DNA of 64,000 bases from positions 16,021,428 to 16,085,427 of the forward strand of contig CM043788.1 in assembly GCA_023974075.1 (NCBI GenBank). Direction: 5' to 3'. The position numbers were made by a program, and so were the translations under genes. This document shows, piece after piece, positions 18,321 to 45,065 of this stretch (position 1 is the stretch's first letter; the number at the start of each line of letters is the position of its first letter). Under the pieces are notes generated by a model. It had not been told where the DNA came from and ran no database searches. It saw only the letters and a program-made list of their open reading frames with translations. This DNA is from Chaenocephalus aceratus. Lineage: Eukaryota; Chordata; Actinopteri; Perciformes; Channichthyidae.

Positions 18321-19290
18321 AGAAACCTCGTGGTGGAAAAACATTCTGAAACATCACCCCTCCACTCCCATTAACATCCCTCAGCTAGCAGCTGCGCTAT
18401 CCACCCACCCAGATTCCGTGTTCGTGGACTATCTCCTGTCAGGGCTCTCCCAAGGCTTCAGGGTAGGGGTCCTCTCATCTCCCACAGTTACTTTCGTAGC
18501 AAAAAATCTTCAGTCAGCCGCTAAAGAACCTAACATAGTCTCCCAGCTCATCGACAAAGAACTCCAAAAAGGATATATAATCGGTCCCTTTAGCTCCTCC
18601 CCCTTCCCAGTGTTCCGTTCAAATCCCATCGGAATAGCCACACGCAAGTACTCCGGAAAGAAAAGGCTGATTTTCGATCTGTCCGCTCCCCGTTCCGGCC
18701 CATTTTGCAGCGTCAATAGTATCATCCCTCAGAGCAGTTTTCCCTTCACTATGCCTCAGTACAATGCAATCAAATTGATTAAGTGCACAGGGCACGGAGC
18801 GTGGCTCTCCAAAGCGGACATTACCGACGCCTTCAAAATCATTCCCATTCACCCGTCCCAGTGGAATCTGTTCGGCATTAAGTGGGAGTCCAAATTATAT
18901 TTCGCTGTTCGCCTAACCTTCGGGTGCAGAAGCAGCCCCTGCATTTTTAACTCCTTCTCGGAAGCGCTCTGCTGGATCCTGCTGAACATAGTTAGAATCC
19001 CCTCCGTCCTTCACCTACTGGACGACTTCCTCCTCATAGATCCGCCACAGGACAGCTCAGGGACCTCACTAGGCAAACTAAAACACTGCTTTCAGGAGTT
19101 AGGCGTCCCCCTCTCCAAGGAGAAAACGTTAGGTCCCAACACAAGCTTAGAGTTCTTAGGCATCACCCTCGACTCTATAGATATGAAGGCATCTCTCCCC
19201 TCAGACAAACTGCAGCGCATCCGGGACATCACTAAATCATATTGCGAGCAACACATCATCTCACAAAACAACAGTTGCTCTCCCTTCTAG
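18283..19290 (+). CDS. Ngaro reverse transcriptase (335-codon open frame)
   Basis: This is the longest intact retrotransposon polymerase frame in the window. It has the YR-retroelement RT layout: GYIIGPFSSSPFPVFRSNPI, the KKRLIFDLSAPRSG block, SKADITDAFKIIPIHPSQW (motif A, catalytic Asp in ADITDAF), FGCRSSPCIFNSFSEAL (motif B) and HLLDDFLLI (motif C as LLDD rather than YxDD, normal for DIRS/Ngaro). The thumb follows (LEFLGITLDSIDMKASLP). The frame ends at 19290 before RNase H, which continues in another frame. The true N-terminus is probably fused to gag or upstream, so the start is uncertain. Confidence 0.85.
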   Translation: MPQAQPKPSSSAPETSWWKNILKHHPSTPINIPQLAAALSTHPDSVFVDYLLSGLSQGFRVGVLSSPTVTFVAKNLQSAAKEPNIVSQLIDKELQKGYIIGPFSSSPFPVFRSNPIGIATRKYSGKKRLIFDLSAPRSGPFCSVNSIIPQSSFPFTMPQYNAIKLIKCTGHGAWLSKADITDAFKIIPIHPSQWNLFGIKWESKLYFAVRLTFGCRSSPCIFNSFSEALCWILLNIVRIPSVLHLLDDFLLIDPPQDSSGTSLGKLKHCFQELGVPLSKEKTLGPNTSLEFLGITLDSIDMKASLPSDKLQRIRDITKSYCEQHIISQNNSCSPF

Positions 19291-23694: not shown

Positions 23695-24852
23695 ATCGCA
23701 ATTGAACCATTTGCTATTGCTGTGAGAGAGCACACAATGATTCAGGCATACATGTGAGAGGGTTTGACCATCGAATAGCTCTTTACGCTGATGACGTGAT
23801 TCCTTCCTTTAGAAATCGGAGAATTCTATACCGGCTCTTATGGATCAGATTAAAGGGTTCAACCATTATCGGGTTACAAAGTAAATCATTCAAAATCCTC
23901 CATCATGCTCCTTAACTCGGAGGAAAGGTCTAACCCCACCCAAACATGCTGGCCATTTCAGAACAGTAAATACTTTCACTTACTGGTATTCAGATTGTTC
24001 CCAAATTGGAAGATATTGTGAACTCTAACTATAATCCGACTATAGCGTCTATTTCCAAATCAGTTGATAGATGGTCAAACCTTCCGATCTCTCTAATGGG
24101 TAGAATTAATATACTCAAGATGAATGTTCTCCCCAAGCTGTTATATTTATTTCAAAACATCCCCTGCCACCCCCCCACCCGATCTTTTTCCTAGAATATA
24201 GAAAATGTTTAGTAATTTGATATGGAATAACAGACACCCCAGACTCCGTTTCTCTCTTGTACTTGCCTTATGAGAGGAGGATTACAGTTCCCTAACATAC
24301 CATGGCACTACTGGGCAGCTCAGCTGAGAACATTGATGTTTACTACACAGAGGAGAGGCCTCCGGGTGGAGGGATGTTGAGTATTGCTCCTTAAAGCTCT
24401 CCCAATTATCTATATTCTGACAACCCTAAAAACTTAAAAAAAACTACAACTAACCCTATAGTTAAAAATATGATTGGTGTTTGGCAGGAGGTTAAAAAAT
24501 ATATGAACGAACCTTCTTCGCTCTCCTGGTTCAGCAGAATCTGGGGAAAATTAGGTTTTTAGACTATGGGCTGAAAAGGGGGTGGGACAGTTAAAATATA
24601 TGTTTGGAAGTGATAATGGGAAGTTTTTATCATTTGAGGAACTTGTCAGTAAATACGATATCCCTCGTAAACATTTTTTTTAAATATTTGCAACTCAGGA
24701 GCTTTGTAGGAGCGAACCAGGATCGACTCATGCTGGCCCCTCCTCTGTCCATATTGGAGAAAGTTTTAATTAAAAACCCCTTTGGGAAGGGTATCATATC
24801 TGAATTCATGATCTCCTGCTGGCGTTCTCCTCAGAATCCTCGAACTCTAGAC
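23695..24852 (+). pseudogene. L1-like ORF2, middle fragment
   Basis: After the L2 tail the L1 frame resumes with EPFAIAVREHTMIQ-type residues and RIALYADDVI (motif C, YADD, with a frame break). Then comes the post-RT segment LPISLMGRINILKMNVLPK (24066-24130), diagnostic of L1/Tx1-type ORF2. Several frameshifts are present. It stops at the palindrome insertion; the last codons are RTLD. Confidence 0.75.
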
Positions 24853-24899
24853 TAGTAGTGATACAAATGCGGTATCAATCTCATTAGTATGCAGAGAAA

Positions 24900-25045
24900 G
24901 TGACAGGTCGCCCCGCCCCTTTTTGACCGGAAGTCCTGCCTTTTTATTTTATTTTGAAAACCGGAAGTCCCGCCTTTTTATTTTATTTTGAAAACCGGAA
25001 GTCCCGTCTCGTTCGACCGGAAGTCCCGAATCGTTCGACCGGATG
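24900..25045. repeat. Short tandem block with GGAAGTCCCG core
   Basis: Units containing 'accggaagtcccg' repeat about five times at 30-45 bp spacing near the palindrome terminus. The mirror copy is at about 36975-37125, with one fewer spacer segment. Subterminal repeats at both ends could be protein-binding sites, but that is inference. Confidence 0.8.
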
Positions 25046-25322
25046 TACAGCCACCGCTTCCGGTTTACAAATAAAATTAAAATTAAATTAAAATTAAAAA
25101 AAATGAGAAAAATTAAATGCAGTTGTTTCAATCAATTAATATACATAGGATATATATCCCGCTCCTAACCACTTCCTGTGTGGTTAATCCTGTATATAGT
25201 ATTGAATTAACTTGCAAATAACATGAAATTAATCTAAAGTAAAGCATCTAAAAAAATGTATATTTAAACCTCTCTATTTTTGCGAACAGGACAGGAGGGG
25301 AGAACCATAGGTGGGAGAGGGG

Positions 25323-25323
<1 letters not shown>

Positions 25324-25359
<36 letters not shown>
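25324..25359. repeat. (CA)n microsatellite, left arm
   Basis: A pure CA run. The mirror (GT)n at 36675-36713 is of different length, so the arms have drifted at this site. Confidence 0.95.
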
Positions 25360-25361
<2 letters not shown>

Positions 25362-26104
25362 TCCCCACCCCCCACCCCATCTCCCCTTAGAGGTTAAATA
25401 AAAGCCAGCGTCTCTTGTGGATGAGACGTCTTGATATGAGTTTAATCAGCGAGACATCGGTGACAACTTACGACCATCCGTTGGGTGCTCCAAATCAAAA
25501 GTAAAGCATATAAAAAACAGATATTTTAAAAAGGCAGCTTTTTTGTTAAAGGATAAGGGAGGGGGAAAAAAAAAACCAAACCCCCTGTGGAGGAACCGTA
25601 AACCCCCTATGGAGACAACCATGCGGTAATTAGGGGGAGGTAGGTAATATACTTAAAATATATATAGAAAGTCAGAGAATATTTATCAGAGGATAACGCA
25701 TATACATTTTATACAAGTCGACACGAGTGGATTTTGTAAGAAAACAAAGTTTTCGTTCTCAGACCGCTGCAGCATTTTCAAGCAGATCTCTGCGATATGC
25801 AATCGCTGTCCGAATATAATGATGACTTTTAATTATTTGTTAACAGTCATAAATGTATTTAGAAAAAACCTGTGCTCAAACATTAAAAAGAAAAAGAAGG
25901 GTAAAGTTACCAAAGCTTTTTGATATAGTTTTTAACACACAGCGAGATCCCTAAAAAAAAAGTTACAAACAGCTGCGGGGTAAGAATTCTTTACTAAAGT
26001 TTTTTTCAAAACTTGTTGAAGAAAAGAGGTATTGCACATTATATAACCGCCAGTGACATAAGGCATGTACGGTAGAAAGATTTAACCGTACGCTGTAAAC
26101 TAAA

Positions 26105-26327
26105 ATGTGGAGGTATTTTACAGCTAAAAACACTCCTAGACCTAAAAATCTGAGAAAAACCAAGTCTCTCCCCACGATATGCAGCCTGGATCAAATGCCT
26201 ACAGGACCGCCATCCTCACCAACATTTAGGACACCAGATCTGGACAGCGCTATGGCTGACATTGATATCACGGGGTGGCTGGATATGCCTCAACCTCCAT
26301 GTGAATTACACACAAATCTGCAGAGTG

Positions 26328-26334
<7 letters not shown>
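26105..26334 (+). CDS. Unrecognised small ORF, palindrome left arm
   Basis: The ATG at 26105 opens a frame of about 77 codons before it runs into the (AT)n tract. It has a basic start (MWRYFTAKNTPRPKNLRKTK) and an acidic second half (DSAMADIDITGWLDMPQPP). The mirror frame at 35690-35908 on the minus strand is nearly identical. Its 'atctgagaaaaaccaagtct' DNA is shared with the start of the 30731 ORF, suggesting shuffled or duplicated exons. No known domain is recognised. It may be an exon, since the C-terminus is lost in simple repeats. Confidence 0.4.
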
Positions 26335-26344
<10 letters not shown>

Positions 26345-26358
<14 letters not shown>

Positions 26359-26605
26359 TCTTTATTTAACAGGTAAAAAAAAACCTCATTGAGATTAAAA
26401 TCTCTTTTTCCAAGAGTGACCTGACCAAGAAGGGCAGCATGTACAAAGTTACAACATATAAAACACAGACATGAAAGGCAGACAAATACAGCTGTAAAAC
26501 ACAAATAAAATGGCACATTAGCCAGTCAATATAAAACCTTTATTTAACCAGATTGGTCCCATTGAGATCATAGATCTCTTTTTCAAGGGAGACCTGCAGA
26601 AATAT
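26345..26605 (-). repeat. Two LINE/SINE-type 3' tails in the left arm
   Basis: The motifs 'tttatttaacaggtaaaa...cctcattgagattaaaatctc' (26362-26403) and 'tttatttaaccagattggtc...cattgagatcatagatctc' (26530-26578) are two related copies of a fish retroposon 3' end, read here as the complement. They are mirrored at 35395-35640. A third relative is at 61340-61425. Because both arms carry them, they were present before the inverted duplication formed. Confidence 0.7.
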
Positions 26606-27908
26606 GCAAAGTAAAACAAACTATTAAAATCATTCAAAAACTGGCAACATTTTTAAAACGATTTCAAGATATACGAGCACTCACATCGACCAAAACTAAA
26701 AAAGTGTTACACAATGACTGACATTCTGTACGGGAGTTCACACCCCCAGCTGCTGTAGGGAGTTGAAATATGTTAAGGCTCTCGGGGGATGGTGGTTAAG
26801 AGACAGATTCTTAGTTTTTGGACTGCCTCAGGGGGTTAACGACATCTACTAAAAACAAAGTACTTCATAGTGTTAGTGTTCCCTGCCCTTATCCATTTAT
26901 TTTTCTTTATTCAGCAATCGGCAATTGTGTCACCTTGTTTTTTCTTGTTAATTAGGAAAGTGCTTGCTTAAATGTTTGTATTTTAAGTGCATATTATAGA
27001 ACAGGTATAGGGCAATATCAAAATTAGCCCAAACTTTTTTTTTATTCACAATGTTTACTGATAATCATCAAAATATGCAGGGGGTCCAATTCTTAACTTT
27101 TCCCTAAAACATTCTAGAATTTCTTTATCTAACACAAAAAACATGAATTTTAAAAACATTTGACAACAATAGATACGTTGTTCCTGTTTTTATTACGATT
27201 ATCAGATACAAAATGATAAGTATAAATAAATCTATGCTTTCAAATGCATTATTCAGAGATATTAGGCCTGTCAAATCAAAACTGGAGCATGTGAATAAGA
27301 GAGAGCAGAGTCCTAACCAGCAGCCCCTCTGATCCAAACCAAACTCTGAGCAGCAGGCGGCTGAGACGGAGCCAACCAGCATGCGGACCAAACTGCTGCT
27401 ATTGATATTTGTCTATATTGATGTTAAACATGGAGCTGCTGTGATGCAAGTCAAATTTGATCTGACCATTAAAGTATTATCGTATTATCGTATCGTATTT
27501 CTGCAGGAGATCCACACATAGACAACTCAACATCACAAAGAGGTCAAAAACTTCACAACAGCCCTTTCAATTGGGACAAAATGTATCGACAGTCATTTAA
27601 AAATGACCCCTCTCACAACTAAGAAGAAGTTAAGAAAATGGACACTGCAAATATAGCTAGGTAAAATGCCAAGTGGGTACAGCTCATTACAAATGTTAAT
27701 CTTGGGTTTGCTTTCACTCGATGAAGCTCAGTGCAAGTTCTTTCATGAAGTGCAGGGTCTTTAATGAAGACTTTCACCTTTCCTAGTCGGATTCTCGTAC
27801 CCCTAAATCTATCACAGCACGATGGAGTCTAATCGCCAAAGTTTAATATATATTGCTCTTTGTATACACAGCAATAATATGTTTATCGCACTAAACAAAC
27901 TTCAACTG

Positions 27909-28214
27909 TCAATCATTCCAAACACTCTTTAAACCGAGGAGGAGGGGCACACTTAAAATATTGTAACGCAATTTAATCACATTACAAAGTTTGACCCAAA
28001 GTTGCTCCCACGCGGATGTTCCCCATGAATTGAATGGTTTTGGAAGAGCAAAGGCAGATTTTGGCTTTTTTTCTCTTGCCAAGATACTTTTAGACACACT
28101 TTGAGGGATGCAAAACCTTAAAACTAGAAAATGAAGTACAGTCTGATTAGATTTTTTCTTAAAGACTGTTTCTCTAAAAGGTAAGTTTGTGATTTTAACA
28201 ATTTTCCCTGACAC
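27909..28214 (-). CDS. 101-codon unrecognised ORF, intact in both arms
   Basis: The open frame opens at a GTG and has no ATG, so it may be an exon rather than a full gene. It is identical in translation to 33793-34098 on the other arm. It is basic and begins SGKIVKITNLPFRETVFKKK, with a conserved-looking WGTSAWEQLWVKLCNVIKLR segment. No known domain. Identity between arms shows only recent duplication or conversion unless substitutions prove silent. Confidence 0.4.
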   Translation of the reverse strand: MSGKIVKITNLPFRETVFKKKSNQTVLHFLVLRFCIPQSVSKSILAREKKPKSAFALPKPFNSWGTSAWEQLWVKLCNVIKLRYNILSVPLLLGLKSVWND

Positions 28215-28885
28215 TTGGCAGATTTGTGTGTAATTCTCTCACAACGGAACTGTAAGATACACTTTTTATGTATGCAAAACCTTAAACTTTTTTTTTTTTT
28301 TTTTTGAAAATAAAATACTTTGTCTGATACATTTTCTTTAAAGGCACTTTTTTTTATTTTAACGCTATTTCAGTGGAAAAATACAGTTTTGTTGACATCA
28401 AGGCCTTTTTTCTCTTTTCTTGTGTTACTAAGATACTTTTAGACACACTTTGATGTATGCAACACTTGTTCAGTTAAACAATGGGTTTTTTTTTTTTTTC
28501 TGATAAACTTACATATTTTAGTTATTTTATGTTACCAAGATACTTTGAGATACACCCTGATGTACGCAACACTTAACAAAGGGTATAATATGAAGTACTT
28601 GGTAAGGAAGGGGTTTTTCCTTAAGGGTGCAAAACTTTAGAACAGGGTAAAATATTCATTAAATTGTATTGAATTGAGTTTTCTTTTTTGATTTTCAACA
28701 TACTATTTGTACACAATGACTTTTCCATATTTCTGAATAAACTATACTTTTGACTTTTTTCCGTAAAATCATGACAAACTATTACTTATTCTTAAAGTTC
28801 ACCTATTGCTGGAGATGAGATGAAAAAGCTACAACGCTTAAAGAACTTTTTTTTCTAAAAACTCTCAATTCTATAATTGACTCCC

Positions 28886-28972
28886 CATTCAACGCAATGA
28901 GCCCCACCCTCCACTCAGCAAATCATCTAAAACGAAGGACCTCACTAAGACGATCGTTGTAAACTAGCCATG
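28886..28972 (+). promoter_or_regulatory. Shared upstream block 1 (before the 28970 ATG)
   Basis: A block with 'ccaccctccactcagcaaat', then 'aaggac', then 'aaactagccatgg' is matched at 30655-30733 in front of an unrelated ORF. The match covers about 80 bp and ends exactly at the ATG. The mirror copy is at about 33039-33125. It is probably a duplicated promoter plus leader. The 'gccATGG' context is a good vertebrate initiation context. Confidence 0.55.
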
Positions 28973-29535
28973 GAGCAGAGAAAAGCCAAGACTCCCCCCG
29001 CGAGTTGCAGTCAGGAACAGAGTCTACAGCAACACCACCATGTGGGAAACCCGATCTTGCAGTACTACTGCTGCTGATGCTACTCCTCGGGTCAAGAAGT
29101 CTCGGTTTAGGGACACAGTGAAATCGGAGTTGTTTTATATTCTGGAGATGGTGATGTATCGGTACAGAAAAGAAATCTGCAAAGAATGCCGACGCAGTAA
29201 CCCCGACCAGAGGCAACACGATTGTCGGAATGACATGGCCCGATTTCTTCTTCAGAAACAATTACAATGCGTTAATGAAAAGACTTTAGCTCGCCGACTT
29301 CGTTGCAGTGATTGACCAGAGTCTTATTGAAAAAGGCATTTGCGAGGATAAACTGAGGATAGGACGCGCTTCGGAAGCTTTTTCTGCACAAGCTTGTAAA
29401 ATGCAGATGCCTCAAGGAGAGACTTGAAATATCCATACAGAGTTGGATGGAGAAGAAGAAGACTAACAAACAACAGTCGGATGGAGAAGAAGCCAGGGAC
29501 TTGTTCAACGCAGTGACTTTTTTCTTAAGTAAAAT
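28970..29535 (+). pseudogene. Left-arm copy of the Cys/His-motif ORF, frameshifted
   Basis: The ATG at 28970 lies at the end of the shared upstream block. Compared with the intact right-arm copy (32478-33041), this arm lacks a C near 29031 and an A near 29055, and has an extra T near 29375. The frame therefore breaks repeatedly. The last part (29447 on) is open and runs straight into the 154-codon frame ending at 30004. Confidence 0.55.
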
Positions 29536-29542
29536 AAAAATG

Positions 29543-30004
29543 GGAAACTACTTTGCAAAACGCTCTGTATATATTGATCATAATGTAGTCATTACCCGTT
29601 TAATAAATGTGGTGATGGGGACGATTGAAAACAGAACGAGTAGTGACCCCTGTGTAAAAAGAATGGCTGAAGTTTGTAAACTACAAGACATTTTGGATAT
29701 CGTTCGTTCTGGCAGTACTATTCCGGGTCATTGGGAAACGCTTGTAAACGAAACATTTAAAGTGGTCCTGGAATCTTCATTTTCCGAAACATTCTGTAAC
29801 ATTATCTCAGAAATGAAACAAACATCAAAAGTGTATCATGTGCTCTCATTGTATGCTCTGTTTGTAGATGTAATGCATCTGTGTGTTGAAAACAGCATAC
29901 ACCTGAATATTTTGACTGAAGTGAAAAAACTCCATCACGATATCTCCAATAATATGGGGAATTCTAAGCTGGAGACTGTCCTGGGGATGCTACAATCAGT
30001 ATAA
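29543..30004 (+). CDS. 154-codon ORF, possible Bcl-2-like fold (left arm)
   Basis: The frame starting MGNYFAKRSVYIDHNV is identical in translation to 32006-32470 on the other arm. It is all-helical in look. A hydrophobic central helix, KVYHVLSLYALFVDVMHLCV, follows an amphipathic FSETFCNIISEMKQ segment. This spacing resembles the region before and within BH1 and helix 5 of Bcl-2 proteins, but the diagnostic NWGR is absent. Adintoviruses and other animal DNA viruses are known to carry Bcl-2 homologues, so the resemblance fits the context. It is still inference by eye. In this arm the frame is continuous upstream to 29447. Confidence 0.45.
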   Translation, partial: GNYFAKRSVYIDHNVVITRLINVVMGTIENRTSSDPCVKRMAEVCKLQDILDIVRSGSTIPGHWETLVNETFKVVLESSFSETFCNIISEMKQTSKVYHVLSLYALFVDVMHLCVENSIHLNILTEVKKLHHDISNNMGNSKLETVLGMLQSV

Positions 30005-30189
30005 CTATTGATTTTGTGGGTGAAAAAAATAAAAAAAGTGTTCTTTACATCTAAAAACTGTTGTCCATCATTATAGCAAGGGGAGCGTGTCTGATACATG
30101 TGTATTACAGTCCTTCTTGTTGTGTTTTTCAGTGTTTTTCTGTGTGTCTGTACACACAAAGCACACTTCATTATCTACTTTTCAGCTTC

Positions 30190-30655
30190 TTTAAAAGAAA
30201 AGTGTATCTTTCGGTAACTTTCTCAGAGAATTTAAGCATAAATATGTCAAATGTTCAAAACAGCATTGTTTCACTGAAATACCCTCAAAATGACAAACTG
30301 CCATTAAGAGTCAGATTCTTAACCAAATCTACTGACACAAAGTCCTTCATTATCTACTTTTCAGCTTTTTAATACAAAAGTGTATCTTTCGGTAACCTTC
30401 TTGAGAGAATTAAGCATAAATCTGTCAAAGATTCTTAACGAAATCTACTGACACAAAGTCTACTTCATTATCTACTTTTCAGCTTGTATACACAAAGTGT
30501 ATCTTTCAGTAACTTTACCAGAGAATTTAAGCATAAATCTGTCAAATGTTCAAAACAGCCTTGTTTCCACTGAATACCCTCAAAATGACAAACTGCCATT
30601 AAGAGTCAGAATCCAAGCGAAATCTCCTCAACAGAGTACTTTTCTACAGATGAAG
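30190..30655 (+). repeat. Tandem repeat with coding-like units
   Basis: Three units of variable length share 'gtgtatctttc.gtaac', 'agaatttaagcataaat' and (in two of them) 'cctcaaaatgacaaactgcc'. In frame they read VYLSVTFSENLSINMSNVQN and YLSVTLPENLSINLSNVQN. The mirror is at 31340-31820. These could be diverged gene duplicates or repeated leader sequence. Confidence 0.6.
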
Positions 30656-30733
30656 CCTCCCACTCAACACAATATGTCCCACCCACTCAGCAAATCATAT
30701 TAAACTAAGGACGCCCGTTAAAAACTAGCCATG
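30655..30733 (+). promoter_or_regulatory. Shared upstream block 2 (before the 30731 ATG)
   Basis: It matches block 1: 'cactcagcaaatcat', 'ctaaggac' and 'aaaactagccatgg'. The mirror copy is at about 31277-31355. Confidence 0.55.
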
Positions 30734-30943
30734 GATCTGAGAAAAACCAAGTCTGACGTAGCCTGCCCTTATTATCACCAGGATAATGGATACGGGCTTA
30801 ATGACTGGATGTTACAAAGTAGGGGAGAGGATGTCCCAGAAGAAGAGCTTTCTTTAAAAGATGGTATTATAGATAACCTTTATAGAAACAGTATATCTCA
30901 TACCACTCGCAAGATCGCAAACGACAATAGCAGAAAAGAATAG
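30731..30943 (+). CDS. 70-codon unrecognised ORF nearest the palindrome centre
   Basis: The ATG lies at the end of shared block 2. The protein starts MDLRKTKSDV and is acidic in the middle (EDVPEEELSLKDG). It ends 27 bp before the arm end, so it may be truncated by the fold-back point. No known domain is recognised. Confidence 0.4.
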   Translation: MDLRKTKSDVACPYYHQDNGYGLNDWMLQSRGEDVPEEELSLKDGIIDNLYRNSISHTTRKIANDNSRKE

Positions 30944-30970
30944 AAAAAGTAAGAAAAACGAAGAAAAGCT

Positions 30971-31037
30971 GATGGTCCCTTTTCTTTTTCATTCGCATTC
31001 TGCGTTTGCTTTTAATTTTTCTTCTCCTTTTCATGTT
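30971..31037. other. Palindrome spacer (fold-back point)
   Basis: About 67 bp of T-rich unique sequence between the two arms, holding 'cattcgcattctgcgtttgc'. It marks where the inverted duplication turned. The arms next to it are A/G-rich against T/C-rich and strictly complementary. Confidence 0.8.
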
Positions 31038-31066
31038 GCTTTTTCTTCGTTTTTCTTTACTTTTTC

Positions 31067-31279
31067 TATTCTTTTCTGCTATTGTCGTTTGCGATCTTGC
31101 GAGTGGTATGAGATATACTGTTTCTATAAAGGTTATCTATAATACCATCTTTTAAAGAAAGCTCTTCTTCTGGGACAATCCTCTCCCCTACTTTGTAACA
31201 TCCAGTCATTAAGCCCGTATCCATTATCCTGGTGATAATAAGGGCAGGCTACGTCAGACTTGGTTTTTCTCAGATCCAT
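31067..31279 (-). pseudogene. Right-arm copy of the 30731 ORF, frameshifted
   Basis: The same start and upstream block on the minus strand. One extra T ('aggattgtccc' against 'aggatgtccc') near 31178 shifts the frame. Confidence 0.5.
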
Positions 31280-32005
31280 GGCTAGTTTTTAACGGGCGTC
31301 CTTAGTTTTTATATGATTTGCTGAGTGGGTGGGACATATTGTGTTGAGTGGGAGGCTTCATCTGTAGAAAGTACTCTGTTTGAGGAGATTTCGCTTGGAT
31401 TCTGACTCTTAATGGCAGTTTGTCATTTTGAGGGTATTTCAGTGAAACAAGGCTGTTTTGAACATTTGACAGATTTATGCTTAAATTCTCTGGTAAAGTT
31501 ACTGAAAGATACACTTTGTGTATACAAGCTGAAAAGTAGATAATGAAGTAGACTTTGTGTCAGTAGATTTCGTTAAGAATCTTTGACAGATTTATGCTTA
31601 TTCTCTCAAGAAGGTTACCGAAAGATACACTTTTGTATTAAAAAGCTGAAAAGTAGATAATGAAGGACTTTGTGTCAGTAGATTTGGTTAAGAATCTGAC
31701 TCTTAATGGCAGTTTGTCATTTTGAGGGTATTTCAGTGAAACAATGCTGTTTTGAACATTTGACATATTTATGCTTAAATTCTCTGAGAAAGTTACCGAA
31801 AGATACACTTTTCTTTTTAAAGAAGCTGAAAAGTAGATAATGAAGTGTGCTTTGTGTGTACAGACACACAGAAAACACTGAAAAACACAACAAGAAGGAC
31901 TGTAATACACATGTATCAGACACGCTCCCCTTGCTATAATGATGACAACAGTTTTTAGATGTAAAGAACACTTTTTTTTATTTTTTTCACCCACAAAATC
32001 AATAG

Positions 32006-32470
32006 TTATACTGATTGTAGCATCCCCAGGACAGTCTCCAGCTTAGAATTCCCCATATTATTGGAGATATCGTGATGGAGTTTTTTCACTTCAGTCAAAA
32101 TATTCAGGTGTATGCTGTTTTCAACACACAGATGCATTACATCTACAAACAGAGCATACAATGAGAGCACATGATACACTTTTGATGTTTGTTTCATTTC
32201 TGAGATAATGTTACAGAATGTTTCGGAAAATGAAGATTCCAGGACCACTTTAAATGTTTCGTTTACAAGCGTTTCCCAATGACCCGGAATAGTACTGCCA
32301 GAACGAACGATATCCAAAATGTCTTGTAGTTTACAAACTTCAGCCATTCTTTTTACACAGGGGTCACTACTCGTTCTGTTTTCAATCGTCCCCATCACCA
32401 CATTTATTAAACGGGTAATGACTACATTATGATCAATATATACAGAGCGTTTTGCAAAGTAGTTTCCCAT
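32006..32470 (-). CDS. 154-codon ORF, right-arm copy
   Basis: The mirror of the left-arm frame with the same 154 residues. It follows the 187-codon ORF after a stop and a very short gap, and so is arranged as a downstream cistron or a separated C-terminal half. Intact copies in both arms, while neighbouring frames have decayed, make this frame the best candidate for a maintained function, or else for recent conversion. Confidence 0.45.
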   Translation of the reverse strand: MGNYFAKRSVYIDHNVVITRLINVVMGTIENRTSSDPCVKRMAEVCKLQDILDIVRSGSTIPGHWETLVNETFKVVLESSFSETFCNIISEMKQTSKVYHVLSLYALFVDVMHLCVENSIHLNILTEVKKLHHDISNNMGNSKLETVLGMLQSV

Positions 32471-32477
32471 TTTTATT

Positions 32478-33041
32478 TTACTTAAAGAAAAAAGTCACTG
32501 CGTTGAACAAGTCCCTGGCTTCTTCTCCATCCGACTGTTGTTTGTTAGTCTTCTTCTTCTCCATCCAACTCTGTATGGATATTTCAAGTCTCTCCTTGAG
32601 GCATCTGCATTTTACAAGCTTGTGCAGAAAAGCTTCCGAAGCGCGTCCTATCCTCAGTTTATCCTCGCAAATGCCTTTTTCAATAAGACTCTGGTCAATC
32701 ACTGCAACGAAGTCGGCGAGCCAAAGTCTTTTCATTAACGCATTGTAATTGTTTCTGAAGAAGAAATCGGGCATGTCATTCCGACAATCGTGTTGCCTCT
32801 GGTCGGGGTTACTGCGTCGGCATTCTTTGCAGATTTCTTTTCTGTACCGATACATCACCATCTCCAGAATATAAAACAACTCCGATTTCACTGTGTCCCT
32901 AAACCGAGACTTCTTGACCCGAGGAGTAGCATCAGCAGCAGTAGTACTGCAAGATTCGGGTTTCCCACATGGTGGTGTTGCTGGTAGACTCTGTTCCTGA
33001 CTGCAACTCGCGGGGGGAGTCTTGGCTTTTCTCTGCTCCAT
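32478..33041 (-). CDS. 187-codon ORF with Cys/His cluster, intact (right arm)
   Basis: It starts at the ATG at 33041-33039 just after the shared upstream block. The N-terminus is low-complexity and Ser/Thr/Pro-rich. Then comes a helical segment (KSELFYILEMVMYRYRKEI), a compact zinc-like cluster CKECRRSNPDQRQHDC (C-x2-C-x9-H-x-C) and a helical C-terminal half rich in Lys/Arg. No family is recognised; small zinc-binding accessory proteins of DNA viruses are one possibility. The stop lies about 7 bp before the next ORF (32470). In the left arm, one base fewer at this junction fuses the two frames, so the ancestral gene may have been one protein of about 345 residues or two overlapping ones. Confidence 0.5.
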   Translation of the reverse strand: MEQRKAKTPPASCSQEQSLPATPPCGKPESCSTTAADATPRVKKSRFRDTVKSELFYILEMVMYRYRKEICKECRRSNPDQRQHDCRNDMPDFFFRNNYNALMKRLWLADFVAVIDQSLIEKGICEDKLRIGRASEAFLHKLVKCRCLKERLEISIQSWMEKKKTNKQQSDGEEARDLFNAVTFFFK

Positions 33042-33792
33042 GGCTAGTTTACAACGATCGTCTTAGTGAGGTCCTTCGTTTTAGATGATTTGCTGAGTGG
33101 AGGGTGGGGCTCATTGCGTTGAATGGGGGAGTCAATTATAGAATTGAGAGTTTTTAGAAAAAAAGTTCTTTAAGCGTTGTAGCTTTTTCATCTCATCTCC
33201 AGCAATAGGTGAAATTTAAGAATAAGTAATAGTTTGTCATGATTTTACGGAAAAAAGTCAAAAGTATAGTTTATCAGAAATATGGAAAAGTCATTGTGTA
33301 CAAATAGTATGTTGAAAATCAAAAAGAAAACTCAATTCAATACAATTTAATGAATATTTTTACCCTGTTCTAAAGTTTTGCACCCTTAAGGAAAAACCCC
33401 TTCCTTACCAAGTACTTCATATTATACCCTTTGTTAAGTGTTGCGTACATCAGGGTGTATCTCAAAGTATCTTGGTAACATAAAATAACTAAAATATGTA
33501 AGTTTATCAGAAAAAAAAAAAAAACCCATTGTTTAACTGAACAAGTGTTGCATACATCAAAGTGTGTCTAAAGTATCTTAGTAACACAAGAAAAGAGAAA
33601 AAAGGCTTGATGTCAACAAAACTGTATTTTTCCACTGAAATAGCGTTAAAATAAAAAAAAGTGCCTTTAAAGAAAATGTATTCAGACAAAGTATTTATTT
33701 TCAAAAAAAAAAAAAAAAAGTTTAAGGTTTTGCATACATAAAAAGTGTATCTTACAGTTCCGTTGTGAGAGAATTACACACAAATCTGCCAA

Positions 33793-34098
33793 GTGTCAGG
33801 GAAAATTGTTAAAATCACAAACTTACCTTTTAGAGAAACAGTCTTTAAGAAAAAATCTAATCAGACTGTACTTCATTTTCTAGTTTTAAGGTTTTGCATC
33901 CCTCAAAGTGTGTCTAAAAGTATCTTGGCAAGAGAAAAAAAGCCAAAATCTGCCTTTGCTCTTCCAAAACCATTCAATTCATGGGGAACATCCGCGTGGG
34001 AGCAACTTTGGGTCAAACTTTGTAATGTGATTAAATTGCGTTACAATATTTTAAGTGTGCCCCTCCTCCTCGGTTTAAAGAGTGTTTGGAATGATTGA
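33793..34098 (+). CDS. 101-codon unrecognised ORF, right-arm copy
   Basis: The exact protein-level mirror of 27909-28214. It lies downstream of 'attacacacaaatctgcc', a motif that also abuts the 26105 ORF end (near 26304), which again points to shuffled modules. Confidence 0.4.
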   Translation: MSGKIVKITNLPFRETVFKKKSNQTVLHFLVLRFCIPQSVSKSILAREKKPKSAFALPKPFNSWGTSAWEQLWVKLCNVIKLRYNILSVPLLLGLKSVWND

Positions 34099-35642
34099 CA
34101 GTTGAAGTTTGTTTAGTGCGATAAACATATTTATTGCTGTGTATACAAAGAGCAATATATATTAAACTTTGGCGATTAGACTCCATCGTGCTGTGATAGA
34201 TTTAGGGGTACGAGAATCCGACTAGGAAAGGTGAAAGTCTTCATTAAAGACCTGCACTTCATGAAAGAACTTGCACTGAGCTTCATCGAGTGAAAGCAAA
34301 CCAAGATTAACATTTGTAATGAGCTGTACCCACTTGGCATTTTACCTAGCTATATTTGCAGTGTCCATTTTCTTAACTTCTTCTTAGTTGTGAGAGGGGT
34401 CATTTTTAAATGACTGTCGATACATTTTGTCCCAATTGAAAGGGCTGTTGTGAAGTTTTTGACCTCTTTGTGATGTTGAGTTGTCTATGTGTGGATCTCC
34501 TGCAGAAATACGATACGATAATACGATAATACTTTAATGGTCAGATCAAATTTGACTTGCATCACAGCAGCTCCATGTTTAACATCAATATAGACAAATA
34601 TCAATAGCAGCAGTTTGGTCCGCATGCTGGTTGGCTCCGTCTCAGCCGCCTGCTGCTCAGAGTTTGGTTTGGATCAGAGGGGCTGCTGGTTAGGACTCTG
34701 CTCTCTCTTATTCACATGCTCCAGTTTTGATTTGACAGGCCTAATATCTCTGAATAATGCATTTGAAAGCATAGATTTATTTATACTTATCATTTTGTAT
34801 CTGATAATCGTAATAAAAACAGGAACAACGTATCTATTGTTGTCAAATGTTTTAAAATTCATGTTTTTTGTGTTAGATAAAGAAATTCTAGAATGTTTTA
34901 GGGAAAAGTTAAGAATTGGACCCCCTGCATATTTTGATGATTATCAGTAAACATTGTGAATAAAAAAAAGTTTGGGCTAATTTTGATATTGCCCTATACC
35001 TGTTCTATAATATGCACTTAAAATACAAACATTTAAGCAAGCACTTTCCTAATTAACAAGAAAAAACAAGGTGACACAATTGCCGATTGCTGAATAAAGA
35101 AAGATAAATGGATAAGGGCAGGGAACACTAACACTATGAAGTACTTTGTTTTTAGTAGATGTCGTTAACCCCTTGAGGCAGTCCAAAAACTAAGAATCTG
35201 TCTCTTAACCACCATCCCCCGAGAGCCATAACATATTTCAACTCCCTACAGCAGCTGGGGTGTGAACTCCCGTACAGAATGTCAGTCATTGTGTAACACT
35301 TTTTTAGTTTTGGTCGATGTGAGTGCTCGTATATCTTGAAATCGTTTTAAAAATGTTGCCAGTTTTTGAATGATTTTAATAGTTTGTTTTCTTTTGCATA
35401 TTTTCTGCAGGTCTCCCTTGAAAAAGAGATCTATGATCTCAATGGGACCAATCTGGTTAAATAAAGGTTTTATATTGACTGGCTAATGTGCCATTTTATT
35501 TGTGTTTTACAGCTGTATTTGTCTGCCTTTCATGTCTGTGTTTTATATGTTGTAACTTTGTACATGCTGCCCTTCTTGGCCAGGTCACTCTTGGAAAAGA
35601 GATTTTAATCTCAATGAGGTTTTTTTTTACCTGTTAAATAAA

Positions 35643-35685
<43 letters not shown>

Positions 35686-35689
35686 CACT

Positions 35690-35908
35690 CTGCAGATTTG
35701 TGTGTAATTCACATGGAGGTTGAGGCATATCCAGCCACCCCGTGATATCAATGTCAGCCATAGCGCTGTCCAGATCTGGTGTCCTAAATGTTGGTGAGGA
35801 TGGCGGTCCTGTAGGCGTTTGATCCAGGCTGCATATCGTGGGGAGAGACTTGGTTTTTCTCAGATTTTTAGGTCTAGGAGTGTTTTTAGCTGTAAAATAC
35901 CTCCACAT
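35690..35908 (-). CDS. Unrecognised small ORF, right-arm copy of the 26105 frame
   Basis: It mirrors 26105-26334. The same residues are retained apart from a Met/Thr change (SLDQM against SLDQT). It can extend upstream to 35923 and, at its C-terminal end, runs into (AT)n. Confidence 0.4.
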
Positions 35909-36673
35909 TTTAGTTTTCAGCATACGGTTAAATCTTTCTACCGTACATGCCTTATGTCACTGGAGGTTATATAATGTGCAATACCTCTTTTCTTCAACAA
36001 GTTTTGAAAAAACTTTAGTAAAGAATCTTTCCCCGCAGCTGTTTGTAACTTTTTTTTAGGGATCTCGCTGTGTGTTAAAACTGTATCAAAAAGCTTTGGT
36101 AACCTTACCCTTCTTTTTCTTTTTAATGTTTGAGCACAGGTTTTTTCTAAATACATTTATGACTGTTAACAAATAATTAAAAGTCATCATTATATTCGGA
36201 CAGCGACTGCATATCGCAGAGATCTGCTTGAAAATGTTGCAGCGGTCTGAGTACGAAAACTCTGTTTTCTTACAAAATCCACTCGTGTCGACTTGTATAA
36301 AATGTATATGCGTTATCCTCTGATAAATATTCTCTGACTTTCTATATATATTTAAGTATATTACCTACCTCCCTCTAATTACCACATGGTTGTCTCCATA
36401 GGGGGTTTACGGTTCCTCCACAGGGGGTTTGGGTTTTTTTCCCCCTCCCTTATCCTTTAACAAAAAAAGCTGCCTTTTTAAAATATCTGTTTTTTTTATA
36501 TGCTTTACTTTTGATTTGGAGCACCCAACGGATGGTTGTAAGTTGTCACCGGTGTCTCGCTGATTAAATTCATATCAAGACGTCTCTTGGCCATTTTCTC
36601 TCGACTTGAGAAATATTTAAGAGTGACGCTGGCTTTTTATTTAGACAGTGGGAGATGGGGTGAGGGGCGGGGA

Positions 36674-36716
<43 letters not shown>

Positions 36717-37182
36717 CCTCCTCCACCATATGTTTTCTCCCCTCCTGTCCTGTTCGCAAAAATAGAGAGGTTTAAATATACATTTTTTTAGATGCTTTAC
36801 TTTAGATTAATTTCATGTTATTTGCAAGTTACATTCAATACTATATACAGGATTAACCACACAGGAAGTGGTTAGGAGGCGGGATATATATCCTATGTAT
36901 ATTAATTGATTGAAAACAACTGCATTTAATTTTTCTCATTTTTTTAATTTTAATTTAATTTTAATTTTATTTTGTAAACCGGAAGCGGTGGCTGTACATC
37001 CGGTCGAACGATTCGGGACTTCCGGTCGAACGAGACGGGACTTCCGGTTTTCAAAATAAAATAAAAAGGCGGGACTTCCGGTTTTCAAAATAAAAAGGCG
37101 GGACTTCCGGTCAAAAGGGGTGGGGCGACCTGTCACTTTCTCTGCATACTAATGAGATTGATACCGCATTTGTATCACTACT

Positions 37183-38059
37183 TAGACTCAATGCCTGGAA
37201 AAATGACTTACAGGAAAATCTAACATTGGAACAGTGGAGCACAGCTTGTAAGGCGGCCCAAACACAGACGGGTAATTCAAGTGGCTAATGAGAGTGTATA
37301 TTACACCAGAAAAACTGAATAAATGTAACGCTAATATCCCAGACACGTGCACCGATGTGGGGAAGGAAAAGGCACACTGTTCCATTGTCTATGGTTATGT
37401 CCAAGAATAAAGGAATTCTGGGAAGAGGTTAGGGTAACAGTACAGAATATTTTAGCGATCAGCTTAAAGCTGGAACAAAAAAATGTCCTACTTCGCCTAT
37501 ATCCGGATGGACATAACATACAAAGTTATAAACAAGTTTTTATAGATATGTGTTTATTACAAGCAAAAAGAGTGATTGCCTTAACATGGAAAAAAGTTGG
37601 GCAAACCTAGTATTTGCACAGTGGTTTAGGGAACTTTCATTATGTCTGCCTTTAGAAAGAAATCACTTACATTCTCAAAAACAAACAAGAACTGTTCCAG
37701 AAGGTCTGGGGACGTTTTATAGAGTATACCAAGAACAACGACCTATCTCAATTTCTGACTGAACCTGGGGCAGGATAATGCGATAATGCTATAATATGCT
37801 ATAATATGTTAAAATGTAAATGACTGTGATATCCTCTGTAGAAATACGGTCCTATTGCTGGAAAACTGGATGGTTGCCGATGTATTAGAGTGCCCTTGTG
37901 GTATGTACCAATTTAATTTAGTGTTGTTATATTTCATTAATGTAAAGTAAAGTAGTTGTCCTGTGTATATATGTATTGCTTTTGGCTCTATGTCTTCGTC
38001 CTATGTATGTGATTTTTTGTAAGCTGAAAATCAATAAACATATTAATAAAAAAACAAAA
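37183..38059 (+). pseudogene. L1-like ORF2 C-terminus and 3' end
   Basis: The frame resumes with LDSMPGKM directly after the palindrome. The open frame 37347-37610 carries the Cys/His cluster HRCGEGKGTLFHCLWLCP typical of the L1 ORF2 C-terminus. The 3' UTR runs to an A-rich tail at 38036-38059, followed by the 15-bp target duplicate. Confidence 0.8.
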
Positions 38060-40612: not shown

Positions 40613-41163
40613 TTTCCATGGTACAAAGCGCGTCAATGGAAAACAGTTGAAGTCAATGGTTTGCAAGTGTACTAAGACAACAGCTCTTTGTCCAAAAAAC
40701 GCCTTCCCTTTACTGGCCAAATCTTGCTTTGTGCACAAGTGTTAAAAATCCTAGACGTCAAATACACTTTCACTTTCATGGCCATTAGCATCTTATACGA
40801 ATGCACAAAAAGCCCAAAAAAAACTAAAACGCGTCTGGCTACACATTGGTAAAAAAGAGACACAAACTGTAAAATAAGCTACCTTATGTTGTTTGCGAAT
40901 GAGAACGTGGGGAAAGCTGTGTCGACGCAGGCTTGAAACCTGGTCGCTGTACACGTGTCATCCATTTTATCTCAAACCTTTCAAATCTATCTTTAAAAAA
41001 AGGGAAATGAGAAAAGGCTGAAACTACAGGGCTGACACTGAGATACAAATAATTATTAATGGGGATCTTGTCCACTTGGTTGGACTCCATCCACGCTTGC
41101 AGTACATGTGGCAAATGTGTTAACTGCTCGTGTTAACCTGTTTAGCCCTGAGCCTGTTTTCAC

Positions 41164-44100
41164 AACCTGATCTCACCAGAATGCGTGACTCCACCACGAC
41201 TTCTTAACACCACAATGCGTGGTGGAGTCACGAACTTTGTTACATTTACGTGTCGGCACCACGCAAACAACCCCAATGTAAAGTGAATGAGGCTCCTTTG
41301 TCGTGGTGCACACACGCATTTCTACAACGTCCCGCAGTGAGCTTTTATTCTATAAAACGTGTTTTTAAATCTACTTTATAGCTTGTAGTAACTCACGGGA
41401 GGCTTTTTTTATTTTATTTGTATTCATAATAATTAAAAAAATGTGTCAGAATGTAAAAATTACATTAATTACGAATGTGTGTTCTCAAAAAACAGTGCAT
41501 AGTGTGTAATGCAACTGTGATTTTTATTAAATTAGTTAGTTTTTAAGGAAGGCCAGAGCTTCAGCTGTGTCAAATAGATTGTTCCCTTTAGTTAACGTTA
41601 TTTAAAAGATAATGATCATGTCCCCTGTATTGTACACCCGGAAGTAAGAATTCTCCTTACTGTCGATTGATTATACAGTGATATCTGCACTACTCATCGA
41701 CTAAAAAACACCAGATTATCCTTGTTAATTACACAACATTGATTGGTTTGAATTGTGTGCAATGCTTTTGTATTTTTCCCCTTCGATTCGGAGAACAAAT
41801 GTTTTTTCGGAGTTTTAGGATGGCCGAAGACACTACACTACCCAGAATCCTCAGCTATCGTTTGGGACTACACCATGTGCTTAGCTTGACAAACCCGTGA
41901 TCAGTCCTCAACCTCTGTGATTGGATGCGCAAAGTTTACACAGAGCGTCAAAAAGGACTTTGAAATGGAATGAAACCCATCGACGGCACACTATTCAAAA
42001 CAGGAATCGAACGTGTCCTACCCCCCCCCCCCCCTTAGGTCACAGGCTCCTCCAACAGTGCTACGCAATAAAACAGATAGGCCTACACAGAAAAAATTGT
42101 GAAATAGTGCAATAAGAGTCTACAAGTGATTGGAATATGATATATTAGATAAATAATTTCTAAGTAGCAGCCAGATGAATGTTATGGATGTTGTTTCTAA
42201 GTACAGGTGTTTAATAATCGTATAGCCTGTGGATGAAGCTGTCTCTGTGTCTGGTGGTTTTAGTCCGGATGCTGCGGTACCGCCTGCCAGACGGCAGCAG
42301 ACAGAACAGTTTGTGGCTGGGGTGATGGGGGTCTTTTATAATCCTGAGGGCTTTCTTTAAGGTTAACCTGGTATTTTTACTCCACTACATTTATTTTAGT
42401 TACTTTACAGATTTGGATTAATGATGTGAAATATAAACAGCCCTTAAATCAGACTTTAGTTACACCTGAGTGAAATTCAGTGAAGGTGATTGATAGTTGG
42501 TGCTTGAGAAGACTACATATTTATCTGCAGATCTGTTTAAAGCATATTCATTACTCGTTATTCTCTAATAGTTAATTAAAGACTGTATATAATTGCTATT
42601 TTGCACATCCCTTTCAAGATTTCAAGATTTTCTAAGGTTTATTGACATATCATATACACAACAGTGTAGTTATGTAATGAATGAAAAACTTGAGTCACAG
42701 GTTCCTCAACAGTGCATTACAAGACATCTATCAATATGTGTGTATACTTCCACCATTACACTGTCGTATTCTGCACATTTCTTATACTATCTACATACAT
42801 AAGATTATAATTAATGTGTATAATATCAGTTAAAATAAGTGCTTCAACATAGTTAACATTGCAGGAAAGTTGATTGTCAAGTTCCAAAACAAACCATGCA
42901 ATTTAGACTTTGTCAGGCTTAATATTTAGATACCCCCAAAGCTTTTTTCCTATTTAAATGTAGACCTTAAACTAAAGTATTCTTTAATGTTTAAATAAAG
43001 CCTTATTAGTTAACACATCCTCCTATCAGGCACTAAACTGTTTTATTCTAGATATCATTTGAGTATCTTCTTGATATTTTCTATTCTATATTTATATCAT
43101 TGACCTTCTACTTTCCCACTATTTTGTATGTACTCTTAATATTTAAATGTTTTCATAAAATATAACACATTCAAAAGTGCTTTACAAAAATGAAAGACAT
43201 TAAGAAAAAGGCATTTTAAACAGTCGTTAAAAAGCAACAAAATCTTCCTGCATTGCAATTACTCTAAACGTGCAATAACGTGCTTTAACCAGTAGGTGGT
43301 TTGGGTTAAAAAGCTGTCAAGTTTACAGTGTTAACAAAATAAGATATACTGCTGTTTCTGGTTTAGTTGACGACGAATATTATTTTGTTATTGTTTTGAT
43401 ATTTGTAACACAAAAGCGATGGAAAACCCCCACAGCAACACAGAAAGATGGCCTTAACATGACCCAGCGGTCTAATAGTTAATAAAAAACAATAATATCA
43501 AAACAAAATATGACTACTAATTTATTGTGAAATTAAAACAGAACAGTAAAAGAATAGTTTTCCGGTCTATTCTGATGCCCGATCTCTGGAGATAAATAAA
43601 GAACTATGACAGATGTGTAATATTTAATGCAGCCAAACCATTTATTACAATGCATTCATGTGATGACTTTCAAAGAGTAAAGCAAGCACTGCTGAATAAA
43701 GTATGATTTTCTCTTTTACGAAACCTTTTTTATATGGAATGCAGTTGGAGGTCAACCAATCAAAGAGCTTGAGGACTGATCACGGGGTTTGTCAAGCTAA
43801 GCACATGGTGGAGTCCCAAACGATAGCTGAGGATTCTGGTAGTGTCGTGTCTTCTGCCATCCAAAAACTCAGAAAAAATCTTTGTTTCTCCGAATTGAAG
43901 GGGGAAAATACAAAAGCATTGTACACAATTCAAACCAATCAATGTTGTGTAATTAACAAGGACAATTTTGTGTTTTTTAGTCGATGAGTAGTGCAGATAT
44001 CACTGTAAAATCAATCGACAGTAAGGAGAATTCTTACTTCCGGGTGTACAATTCTCCGTTATCCAATGGGAATGGATGCTCGTAATACAATACAGGGGAC

Positions 44101-44556
44101 ATGATCATTATCTTTTAAATAACGTTAACTAAAGGGAACAATCTATTTTACACAGCTGAAGCTCTGGCCTTCCTTAAAAACGAACTAATTTAATAAAAAT
44201 CACAGTTGCATTACACACAATGCACTGTTTTTTGAGAACACAAATTCGTAACTAATGTAATTTTTACATTCTGACGAATTTTTTTAATTATTATGAATAC
44301 AAATAAAATAAAAGAAGCCTCCCGTGAGTTACTACAAGCTATAAAGTAGATTTAAAAAAACGTTTTATAGAATAAAAGCTCACTGCGGGACGTTGTAGAA
44401 ATGCGTGTGTGCACCACGACAAAGGAGCCTCATTCACTTTACATTGGGGTTGTTTGCGTGGTGCCGACACGTAAATGTAACAAAGTTCGTGACTCCACCA
44501 CGCATTGTGGTGTTAAGAAGTCGTGGTGGAGTCACGCATTCTGGTGAGATCAGGTT
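41164..44556. mobile_element. Long-inverted-repeat element C (3.4 kb)
   Basis: The ends 'aacctgatctcaccagaatg' (41164) and its complement (44537-44556) begin arms of about 700 bp that stay complementary to about 41870 and 43760. Each outer arm holds a small palindrome around 'gtgactccaccacg'. The inner part (42365-43320) matches 38400-38935 inverted. No transposase frame is visible. Its family is not recognised, and it is a relative of the A-A' element. Confidence 0.75.
42190..42365 (+). repeat. GC-richer island of probable retroposon origin
   Basis: This stretch ('gatgctgcggtaccgcctgc...ggcagcagacagaacag') is much less AT-rich than its surroundings and has no counterpart in the 38400-38935 copy. 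It is probably a fragment of an inserted repeat; the family is not recognised. Confidence 0.4.
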
Positions 44557-45065
44557 GGTTTTTCAGGTCTCAGGCTCGAAAATGACATTCCCAGAACAAA
44601 TGACCATATCTTCCCTTCTAAAGGGTTAAATTAATAATCTTTTTTCTCAAAGTAATGATAAACCTGTGAGTTGGATGTAGAAAAGTCAGAATCAATATAG
44701 ATGTTTTTTATTTTAAAGAAAATTCAGATTGAACATAGTAAAAAACTGTAAATGATATTGTCCGTCCAAACATTCTTTTTTACTTATAGTGAAAACTACC
44801 CTTGGATGATGGTAAGGTAGACTAAAAGCTTTAGGAATCAAAAGTACAACATATAATAAGTACCCTGTATCAGGATTGATGCAAAACAAGTGACATTTGA
44901 CCATTTTAGAGAGGTTTAGCAAAAACACTCCACCTCTGAGGTGATTTGGGTGGAAATGGGGGTTTTACCGTTTCTCTGGAACCCATTGGTCGATTTTGGT
45001 GATTGACATCTCTTTCTCACCATTAGAGCAAATAGAATCAAAGGGAGATCTCCCCACTCACACAC

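Follow-up and report, generated by a model that had tools for sequence, protein, structure and literature searches.

The question raised by this stretch of DNA from the icefish Chaenocephalus aceratus (assembly GCA_023974075.1, contig CM043788.1, positions 16,021,428 to 16,085,427 of the forward strand; these 64,000 nucleotides are called "the window" here) is how a mobile element of 12.3 kb, consisting nearly completely of one inverted repeat, could arise and spread. Chromosomal palindromes with arms of several kilobases and a short spacer should be unstable; nonetheless, this one is present at more than twenty sites, with the centre preserved at several of them. An earlier note had described a palindromic mobile element with arms of about 6.1 kb, which self-BLAST of the window bore out, and had treated it as a single event, which it is not: the palindrome belongs to a multicopy family. 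Judged from its sequence, the element is a derivative of a Maverick/Polinton, a relationship that is new relative to the earlier note. The best explanation, to which a probability of about 0.65 is assigned, is that the element is a member of a family of giant palindromes that bear Maverick/Polinton ends, and that this family is mobile in its palindromic form, was likely founded by a fold-back (snap-back) error during protein-primed Maverick replication, and is predicted to be mobilized by the DNA polymerase (PolB) and integrase of ordinary Mavericks.

The element comprises positions 24854 to 37182 of the window (12,329 bp); the end agrees with the interval 24853..37182 given before, and the start is one base later. 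Self-BLAST divided it into a left arm on the plus strand (24854 to 30967) and a right arm on the minus strand (31041 to 37182), each of about 6.1 kb, around a strandless central spacer of 73 bp (30968 to 31040). The arms were aligned by an inner inverted match of 25423-30967 with 36586-31041 (5,573 columns, 98.5%) and an outer one of 24854-25415 with 37182-36622 (571 columns, 94.4%). The 67-bp spacer reported earlier is that of C24a and C7, two other copies sharing the centre of the window element, but not that of the window itself; these C-numbers are contig-based labels of loci in the window's own genome assembly. The 301-nucleotide centre folds with a z score of −31.9 compared to 100 shuffled sequences, which excludes a chance palindrome. 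On both sides, the element is flanked by the same 6-bp target site duplication (TSD) on the plus strand, TAGACT (24848-24853 and 37183-37188), in agreement with its proposed integration as a unit. When the flanks are rejoined with a single TAGACT, one open frame of 49 codons spans the insertion site; stops are present further out, and by its resemblance the frame may be that of an L1. On the plus strand, the element starts with AGTAGT (24854-24859) and finishes with ACTACT (37177-37182). This is the 5′-(AGT)2//(ACT)2-3′ motif which, together with a 6-bp TSD, is the commonest end of vertebrate Mavericks in the part of PMC8097293 that was covered.

Evaluation of such a structure needs to consider whether both arms are real. 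Between the window arms, 25 substitutions were counted at arm positions 480 to 1600 (2.2%), 3 at positions 2100 to 4000, and 15 at positions 4000 to 6114, 14 of the latter in two tight runs that resemble alignment shifts. The differences are concentrated in the outer 2 kb, and of the remaining inner differences, many are indels of a single base that probably stem from long-read errors. Because the arms differ by substitutions and indels, they were sequenced separately, and the arm-to-arm alignment suggested before, which yielded less than 100% identity and real substitutions, did not bear out a mirrored assembly. An assembly break at the centre, named beforehand as a finding that would speak against the element, is answered by the presence of the same centre at further sites. 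As had been described, the arms share open reading frames (ORFs); what had been called older retroposon tails is also seen in both arms, without an identification.

The genome search with the element terminus, likewise suggested before, uncovered the family of palindromes. The first 301 bp of the element were compared to 1.064 Gb in 3,032 contigs, and the best 40 of 514 candidates were scored. They had 97 to 100% identity; 20 formed 10 inverted pairs, 1 was the window, and 19 were unpaired. The 10 paired elements, assembled from overlapping stretches, were compared end to end. All of them possessed (AGT)2..(ACT)2 ends, and 9 a 6-bp TSD of varied sequence at the expected offset, which was off by one base in the tenth, C7. 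Nine were palindromic with arms on a common inner core, and one, C10, was not palindromic and was without this core; considering the paired palindromes only, Maverick ends were found in 9/9 and an exact 6-bp TSD in 8/9. C283 and C192 have an identical TSD and flanks and represent a single insertion site assembled twice. The 19 unpaired matches correspond to 17 loci (one locus has two matches separated by 460 bp, and C807 also has two) and were sampled as 1-kb pieces at 18 places. The palindrome core was present at 16 of these; one, C8, contained PolB with 99.6% identity to C10, and one contained outer-arm sequence of C807. At 14 of the 16 core-bearing places, the palindrome sequence was found inverted at 8 to 9 kb from the end, and the remaining two (C540 and C7:32.7M) are one-armed copies. 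The best 40 of the 514 candidates correspond to 28 loci: 24 palindromic, 2 one-armed, and 2 ordinary Mavericks (C10 and C8). Since C283 and C192 are one site, there are at most 23 distinct palindromic sites among them, and further duplicates are possible because other tallied copies are on unplaced contigs.

A second search of the same genome used 601 bp of the core. The best 40 of 963 candidates (99 to 100% identity) comprised 13 convergent inverted pairs, none direct or divergent, and 14 singles, the partners of which were perhaps among the candidates not scored. One pair, at C250, had an unusual spacing of 9.3 kb, and 9 of the 13 pairs were at loci new relative to the terminal-repeat set, some of them on unplaced contigs. 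The window element and the nine paired palindromes have total lengths of 11.8 to 14.7 kb compared to 15.3 kb of C10; being slightly shorter than the ordinary element would fit a packaging limit, and could equally be the result of common descent.

The central spacers indicate how the copies are related. In addition to the two lengths given above for the window (73 bp) and for C24a and C7 (67 bp), they measured 697 to 698 bp in C5 and C9, 422 bp in C22, 258 bp in C283, and 1,857 bp in C13, in which one arm is deleted; about 30 bp in C24b and about 22 bp in C192 were derived from the arm lengths, the C192 sequence being poor in this region. Junction probes located the 67-bp centre at four loci (the window, C24a, C7, and C5:21.1M), the 698-bp centre at nine, among them C3 with a shorter spacer of 504 bp, and the 422-bp centre at two; 5 of the 14 newly sampled centres had no junction-probe match in the piece examined. 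A core spacing of about 2.61 kb, typical of the 67-bp centre, also exists at C10:6.4M, C8:11.0M, and two C1 loci, as judged by the spacing only. The same centre at several insertion sites means that the palindrome was inherited as a palindrome through transposition. The inverted duplication consequently predates the insertion in the window, as the earlier note had it in placing this step before or during mobilization, and the family must have been founded by at least one inverted duplication. At the four readable junctions (C283, C22, C24a, and C24b), the sequence is continuous compared to another copy and then jumps to the opposite arm, with overlaps of 0 to 4 bp. As far as can be read from such junctions, these centres can come from fold-back copying or from an asymmetric deletion in the middle of a longer palindrome. 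Several independent fold-backs had been considered as the source of the varied centres; this idea was dropped, since asymmetric deletion also fits and the C283/C192 pair favors deletion.

The homogeneity of the arms was measured in 2,218 clean core columns, with C13 left out because one of its cores is deleted. Within a copy, no differences between the core arms existed in C283, C5, C24a, C22, and C192, 2 in C9, and 3 in C24b, so 7 of 9 copies had 0 to 3 differences compared to 0 to 30 between copies (C283 and C192 being one site). C5 and C9, which share a centre, differed from each other at 10 to 12 positions and between their own arms at 0 to 2. This indicates homogenization without a change of the centre, either by chromosomal arm-to-arm conversion or by a hairpin intermediate; the data favor neither route.

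The outer arms connect the palindromes to C10, an ordinary Maverick with 15.3 kb between the outer ends and terminal inverted repeats (TIRs) of about 0.7 kb. Its ORFs matched PolB (PF03175, 7.5e-44), the rve integrase (6.2e-13), and an A32-type ATPase (7.1e-8) in Pfam; the match to an adenovirus-type protease was just under the cut-off (E 0.0005). The integrase region is split over two ORFs, so that C10 is not called complete. Its ORFs for 438, 298, and 143 aa were taken as those of the capsid-module proteins from the gene order only; a Pfam scan of the 438- and 298-aa ORFs gave no match. The arms of C283, C5, C13, and C192 and the right arm of C22 were 98.6 to 99.6% identical to C10 on its integrase side, over a length of 3.0 kb, or 2.6 kb in the case of C5. 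Those of the window, C24a, C7, and C24b matched its PolB end, mostly with 96 to 98%, and a 0.8-kb piece of C24b with 92.7%. C9 and the left arm of C22 had only the terminal repeat and nearby fragments in common with C10. Because C22 and C7 have two unlike arms each and both Maverick ends occur in the outer arms, the elements appear to swap ends mutually or with resident Mavericks. In the left arm of the window element, on the plus strand, the outermost segment (24854-25412) has 95 to 97% identity to both ends of C10. It is followed by a segment with 97.5% identity to the PolB-side end (25423-26148), which holds a decayed integrase remnant (25660-26135; 87% identity to the C10 integrase region, also found by tblastn), and by a fragment with 96% identity to the integrase side (26148-26300), which lies within the 5′ portion of an accessory gene of Mavericks, the 218-aa ORF of C10 and C283. 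On the minus strand, the right outer arm (35865-37182) has 96.3% identity to the PolB-side end and contains the other integrase remnant (35878-36349; 88.7% identity to the C10 integrase region).

Thirteen C10 proteins were compared to 10 palindromes by tblastn (E ≤ 1e-5). PolB, the ATPase, the protease, the 438- and 298-aa ORFs, three small ORFs, and the C-terminal part of the integrase had no match in any of the 10, so the polymerase, ATPase, protease, and capsid genes of an autonomous Maverick (the capsid genes being named from gene order) were found in none of them. The N-terminal part of the integrase matched 9 of the 10. In the window, it persists as a decayed remnant (43% over 140 aa), and it is near-intact and open in C283, C192, and C13, with the rve core demonstrated for C283, but these three are without the C-terminal part and do not possess the integrase of an autonomous element. 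The 218- and 267-aa accessory proteins matched all 10 palindromes, partly as mere remnants or distant paralogues, and a 527-aa accessory protein from the PolB side matched only C24b. With Maverick termini, terminal sequence in common with C10, and no match to a replication gene, the palindromes have the features of a non-autonomous Maverick derivative. Two palindrome ORFs were absent from the ORF lists of C10. The first, for 154 aa, is of full length in 19 of 20 arms; in the window, its left copy (29540-30004, plus strand) is open inside a 185-aa frame, and its right copy (32006-32470, minus strand) is without a Pfam match. The second, for 187 aa, is of full length in 14 of 20 arms and is 31 to 32% identical over about 155 aa to the 218-aa accessory protein; single-base differences disrupt the frame of its left copy (28970-29533, plus strand), and the right copy (32478-33041, minus strand) has its best match in another icefish, Champsocephalus esox, to an uncharacterized protein with 95% identity across 66% of the query. 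Protein searches with element sequences retrieved only fragments and this one icefish protein, Pfam gave nothing usable for the ORFs of the window element, and scans of IMG/VR with the 154-aa ORF and a piece of the integrase relic as well as a degenerate motif scan found no relatives. AlphaFold models of the 154-aa ORF were poor (mean predicted local distance difference test scores of 48.6 and 46.3), and a guess that it might be Bcl-2-like was dropped. Variable codons numbered five in the 154-aa ORF, all nonsynonymous, and four in the 187-aa ORF, two of them synonymous; with so few, mostly nonsynonymous, purifying selection on these ORFs is not claimed.

The best reading of these data is that of a non-autonomous, Maverick-derived palindromic satellite with a trimmed centre, which would be mobilized in trans by the enzymes of an autonomous relative. 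During replication, a nascent or displaced strand may have turned back on itself and served as its own template as far as the terminus, leaving the same origin and the same integrase recognition end on both sides. Because the Maverick PolB is of the protein-primed type, a linear molecule with a proper terminus at both ends could initiate at either end, and palindromic molecules would be replicated in trans from both. A single strand could fold into a hairpin of about 6 kb, which, together with arm-to-arm conversion, would keep the arms similar. The centre would have been trimmed later by asymmetric central deletions or new fold-backs, giving the spacers of about 30, 67, 258, 422, and 698 bp, and the Maverick integrase would recognize the termini and insert the palindromes with 6-bp TSDs.

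A number of observations weigh against this explanation. The founding fold-back is not directly visible, and no linear progenitor with the inner core was found among the best 40 candidates scored per genome search. No complete helper was among the elements seen, with the C10 integrase in two ORFs and C8 represented by one PolB piece. By their coordinates, all centre types could also derive from a single, longer palindromic ancestor through asymmetric loss of central sequence. C283:156408-170782, with a 258-bp spacer, and C192:60550-74903, with about 22 bp, are one site in opposite contig orientation whose centres differ; this is better explained by post-insertion trimming or by an assembly error than by repeated fold-back. 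The window element, C24a, and the right arm of C7 also carry a piece of about 100 to 150 bp from the C10 integrase side, and the 698-bp centre is paired with integrase-type outer arms in C5 and with others in C9, so that terminal exchange must also occur. The arms of the window element and of C7 are not homogenized, with 13 core differences each (those of the window are partly an alignment shift), and in the core columns, the right arm of C7 is nearer to the right arm of the window element (4 differences) than to its own left arm.

Alternatively, a parental Maverick with TIRs of 6 to 7 kb around PolB and the capsid genes may have lost its centre, leaving only the repeats. This is unlikely. The spacer variants indeed look as if a longer palindrome had lost central sequence asymmetrically, and with about 24 kb, an ancestor would not exceed the size range of intact vertebrate Mavericks, 12,723 to 24,620 bp, in the covered part of PMC8097293. 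However, the TIRs given there are 46 to 1,447 bp (mean, 402 bp) and those of the resident C10 are likewise short, none of the 10 palindromes retained a match to PolB, the capsid module, the ATPase, or the protease, and within the arms, a core that is absent from C10 is connected to a truncated integrase or to the other end of a Maverick. An inverted duplication of a resident Maverick end in the chromosome, by a hairpin-capped break or a breakage-fusion type of event, with mobilization only later, has a still lower probability. Such a mechanism yields short-spacer palindromes with little microhomology, which is what the overlaps at the four readable junctions look like, but no host DNA was seen inside the element, a Maverick terminus with a TSD is present at each outer end, and later movement of the palindrome is clear.

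An assembly artefact from palindromic long reads with a missed adapter would explain the many 1-base indels between the window arms, which suggest long-read errors, and the different centres of C283 and C192. It is nevertheless highly improbable when confronted with matching TSDs in different host flanks at eight distinct palindromic sites (a ninth, C7, is off by one base), the same centre at independent sites, the real substitutions in the outer 2 kb of the window arms, and the two unlike arms of C22 and C7. Least probable of all is that the element is a transposon from a different superfamily that forms palindromes, either of the Foldback/Galileo kind or similar to Teratorn. Foldback elements typically have long inverted repeats and consist mostly of them, but they belong to another transposase family without Maverick ends, and the ends, the TSD length, and the outer-arm sequence of the palindromes are all of the Maverick type. 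Teratorn, a fusion of piggyBac with a herpesvirus, uses TTAA, whereas the TSDs here are 6 bp long and varied, and no P-type or piggyBac transposase was recognized among the ORFs scanned with Pfam.

Compared to vertebrate Mavericks/Polintons, the satellite has the (AGT)2//(ACT)2 ends, the 6-bp TSD, a similar length, and outer arms mostly 96 to 99.6% identical to the resident copy in common. It differs in the truncated or decayed integrase, the missing matches to PolB, ATPase, protease, and capsid module, and the inverted arms of 6 to 7 kb (about 6.1 kb in the window), far outside the TIR range of PMC8097293 in its covered part. In the same part, "palindrom," "nonautonomous," "non-autonomous," and "satellite" do not occur, nor does "palindrom" in the covered part of PMC6431247. 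In titles and abstract openings among the open-license PMC papers listed, which were also searched for notothenioid Mavericks, no palindromic, snap-back, non-autonomous, or foldback Maverick/Polinton was described. Adenoviruses offer a similar case: the defective left-end genomes in incomplete particles described by Daniell in 1976, a work cited in PMC5033970, reportedly include an inverted-duplicate form. Their origin would be equivalent, in that one end of a protein-primed linear genome was duplicated, but they arise in infected cells, while the palindromic element is inherited through the germline and has multiplied. The "hairpin plasmid" of Kikuchi from 1985, cited in PMC4443254, which is said to be derived from yeast linear killer plasmids, is likewise a palindromic derivative of a protein-primed linear replicon, but as a plasmid it does not integrate. 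Adintoviruses are kin of the Mavericks. They are adenovirus-like animal viruses with PolB and an rve integrase (PMC11071296, as far as covered) and have complete genomes, while the palindromic element retains the terminal regions only, plus a core of its own.

If the enzymes of ordinary Mavericks mobilize it, the element would be a self-mirrored satellite of a virus-like transposon. A mirror genome in which one terminus is used at both ends would be a sign that nothing more than this terminus is required for replication and integration in trans, as protein priming predicts. This may be one answer to the hundreds of defective Maverick copies in some genomes, an amplification termed "perplexing" in the covered part of PMC8097293, although that puzzle concerns other species. 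A more far-reaching idea, which is possible but doubtful, is that the palindrome is a satellite virus of the germline whose mirror genome is replicated through a hairpin of about 6 kb, so that one arm would template the whole molecule, and is packaged into Maverick capsids, and that it has outcompeted its helper and persists as a heritable defective-interfering parasite of the Mavericks of this fish. The ratio of 24 palindromic to 2 ordinary loci comes from the best matches to the terminal repeat of the window itself, a sample biased toward palindromes. In any case, the family provides a natural series for measuring the trimming of centres and arm-to-arm conversion in a vertebrate germline.

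Some loci of the family have additional features. In the one-armed copy at C540:66148-69150, the arm terminates inside the 67-bp spacer, and a tandem satellite array with a period of about 378 bp is located about 1.2 kb beyond, at 66148 to 67148. The other one-armed copy, C7:32689220-32692227, ends near the centre of a palindrome of the 698/258 type and continues into DNA that matches neither the palindromes nor C10. Terminal repeats in the same direction are 4.4 kb apart at C807:11312-16055 and 460 bp apart at C5:21138048-21138809, which suggests internal copies of the terminal repeat or nested elements.

The window also contains other repeats. Positions 2056-4129 and 53514-55543 are a direct repeat pair of about 86% identity with long ORFs (one of 480 aa at 2926-4368, for instance) and may be two copies of a single retroelement, and an ORF at 18283-19287 has a match to a reverse transcriptase (PF00078, 1.1e-10). 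An inverted repeat pair at 41163-41927 and 43753-44557, about 1.8 kb apart, has 98% identity over 472 bp plus 93% over 301 bp and is possibly another inverted-repeat element. Finally, positions 50488-50893 hold a 60-bp tandem repeat of 6.8 copies with 96% identity and ORFs on both strands.

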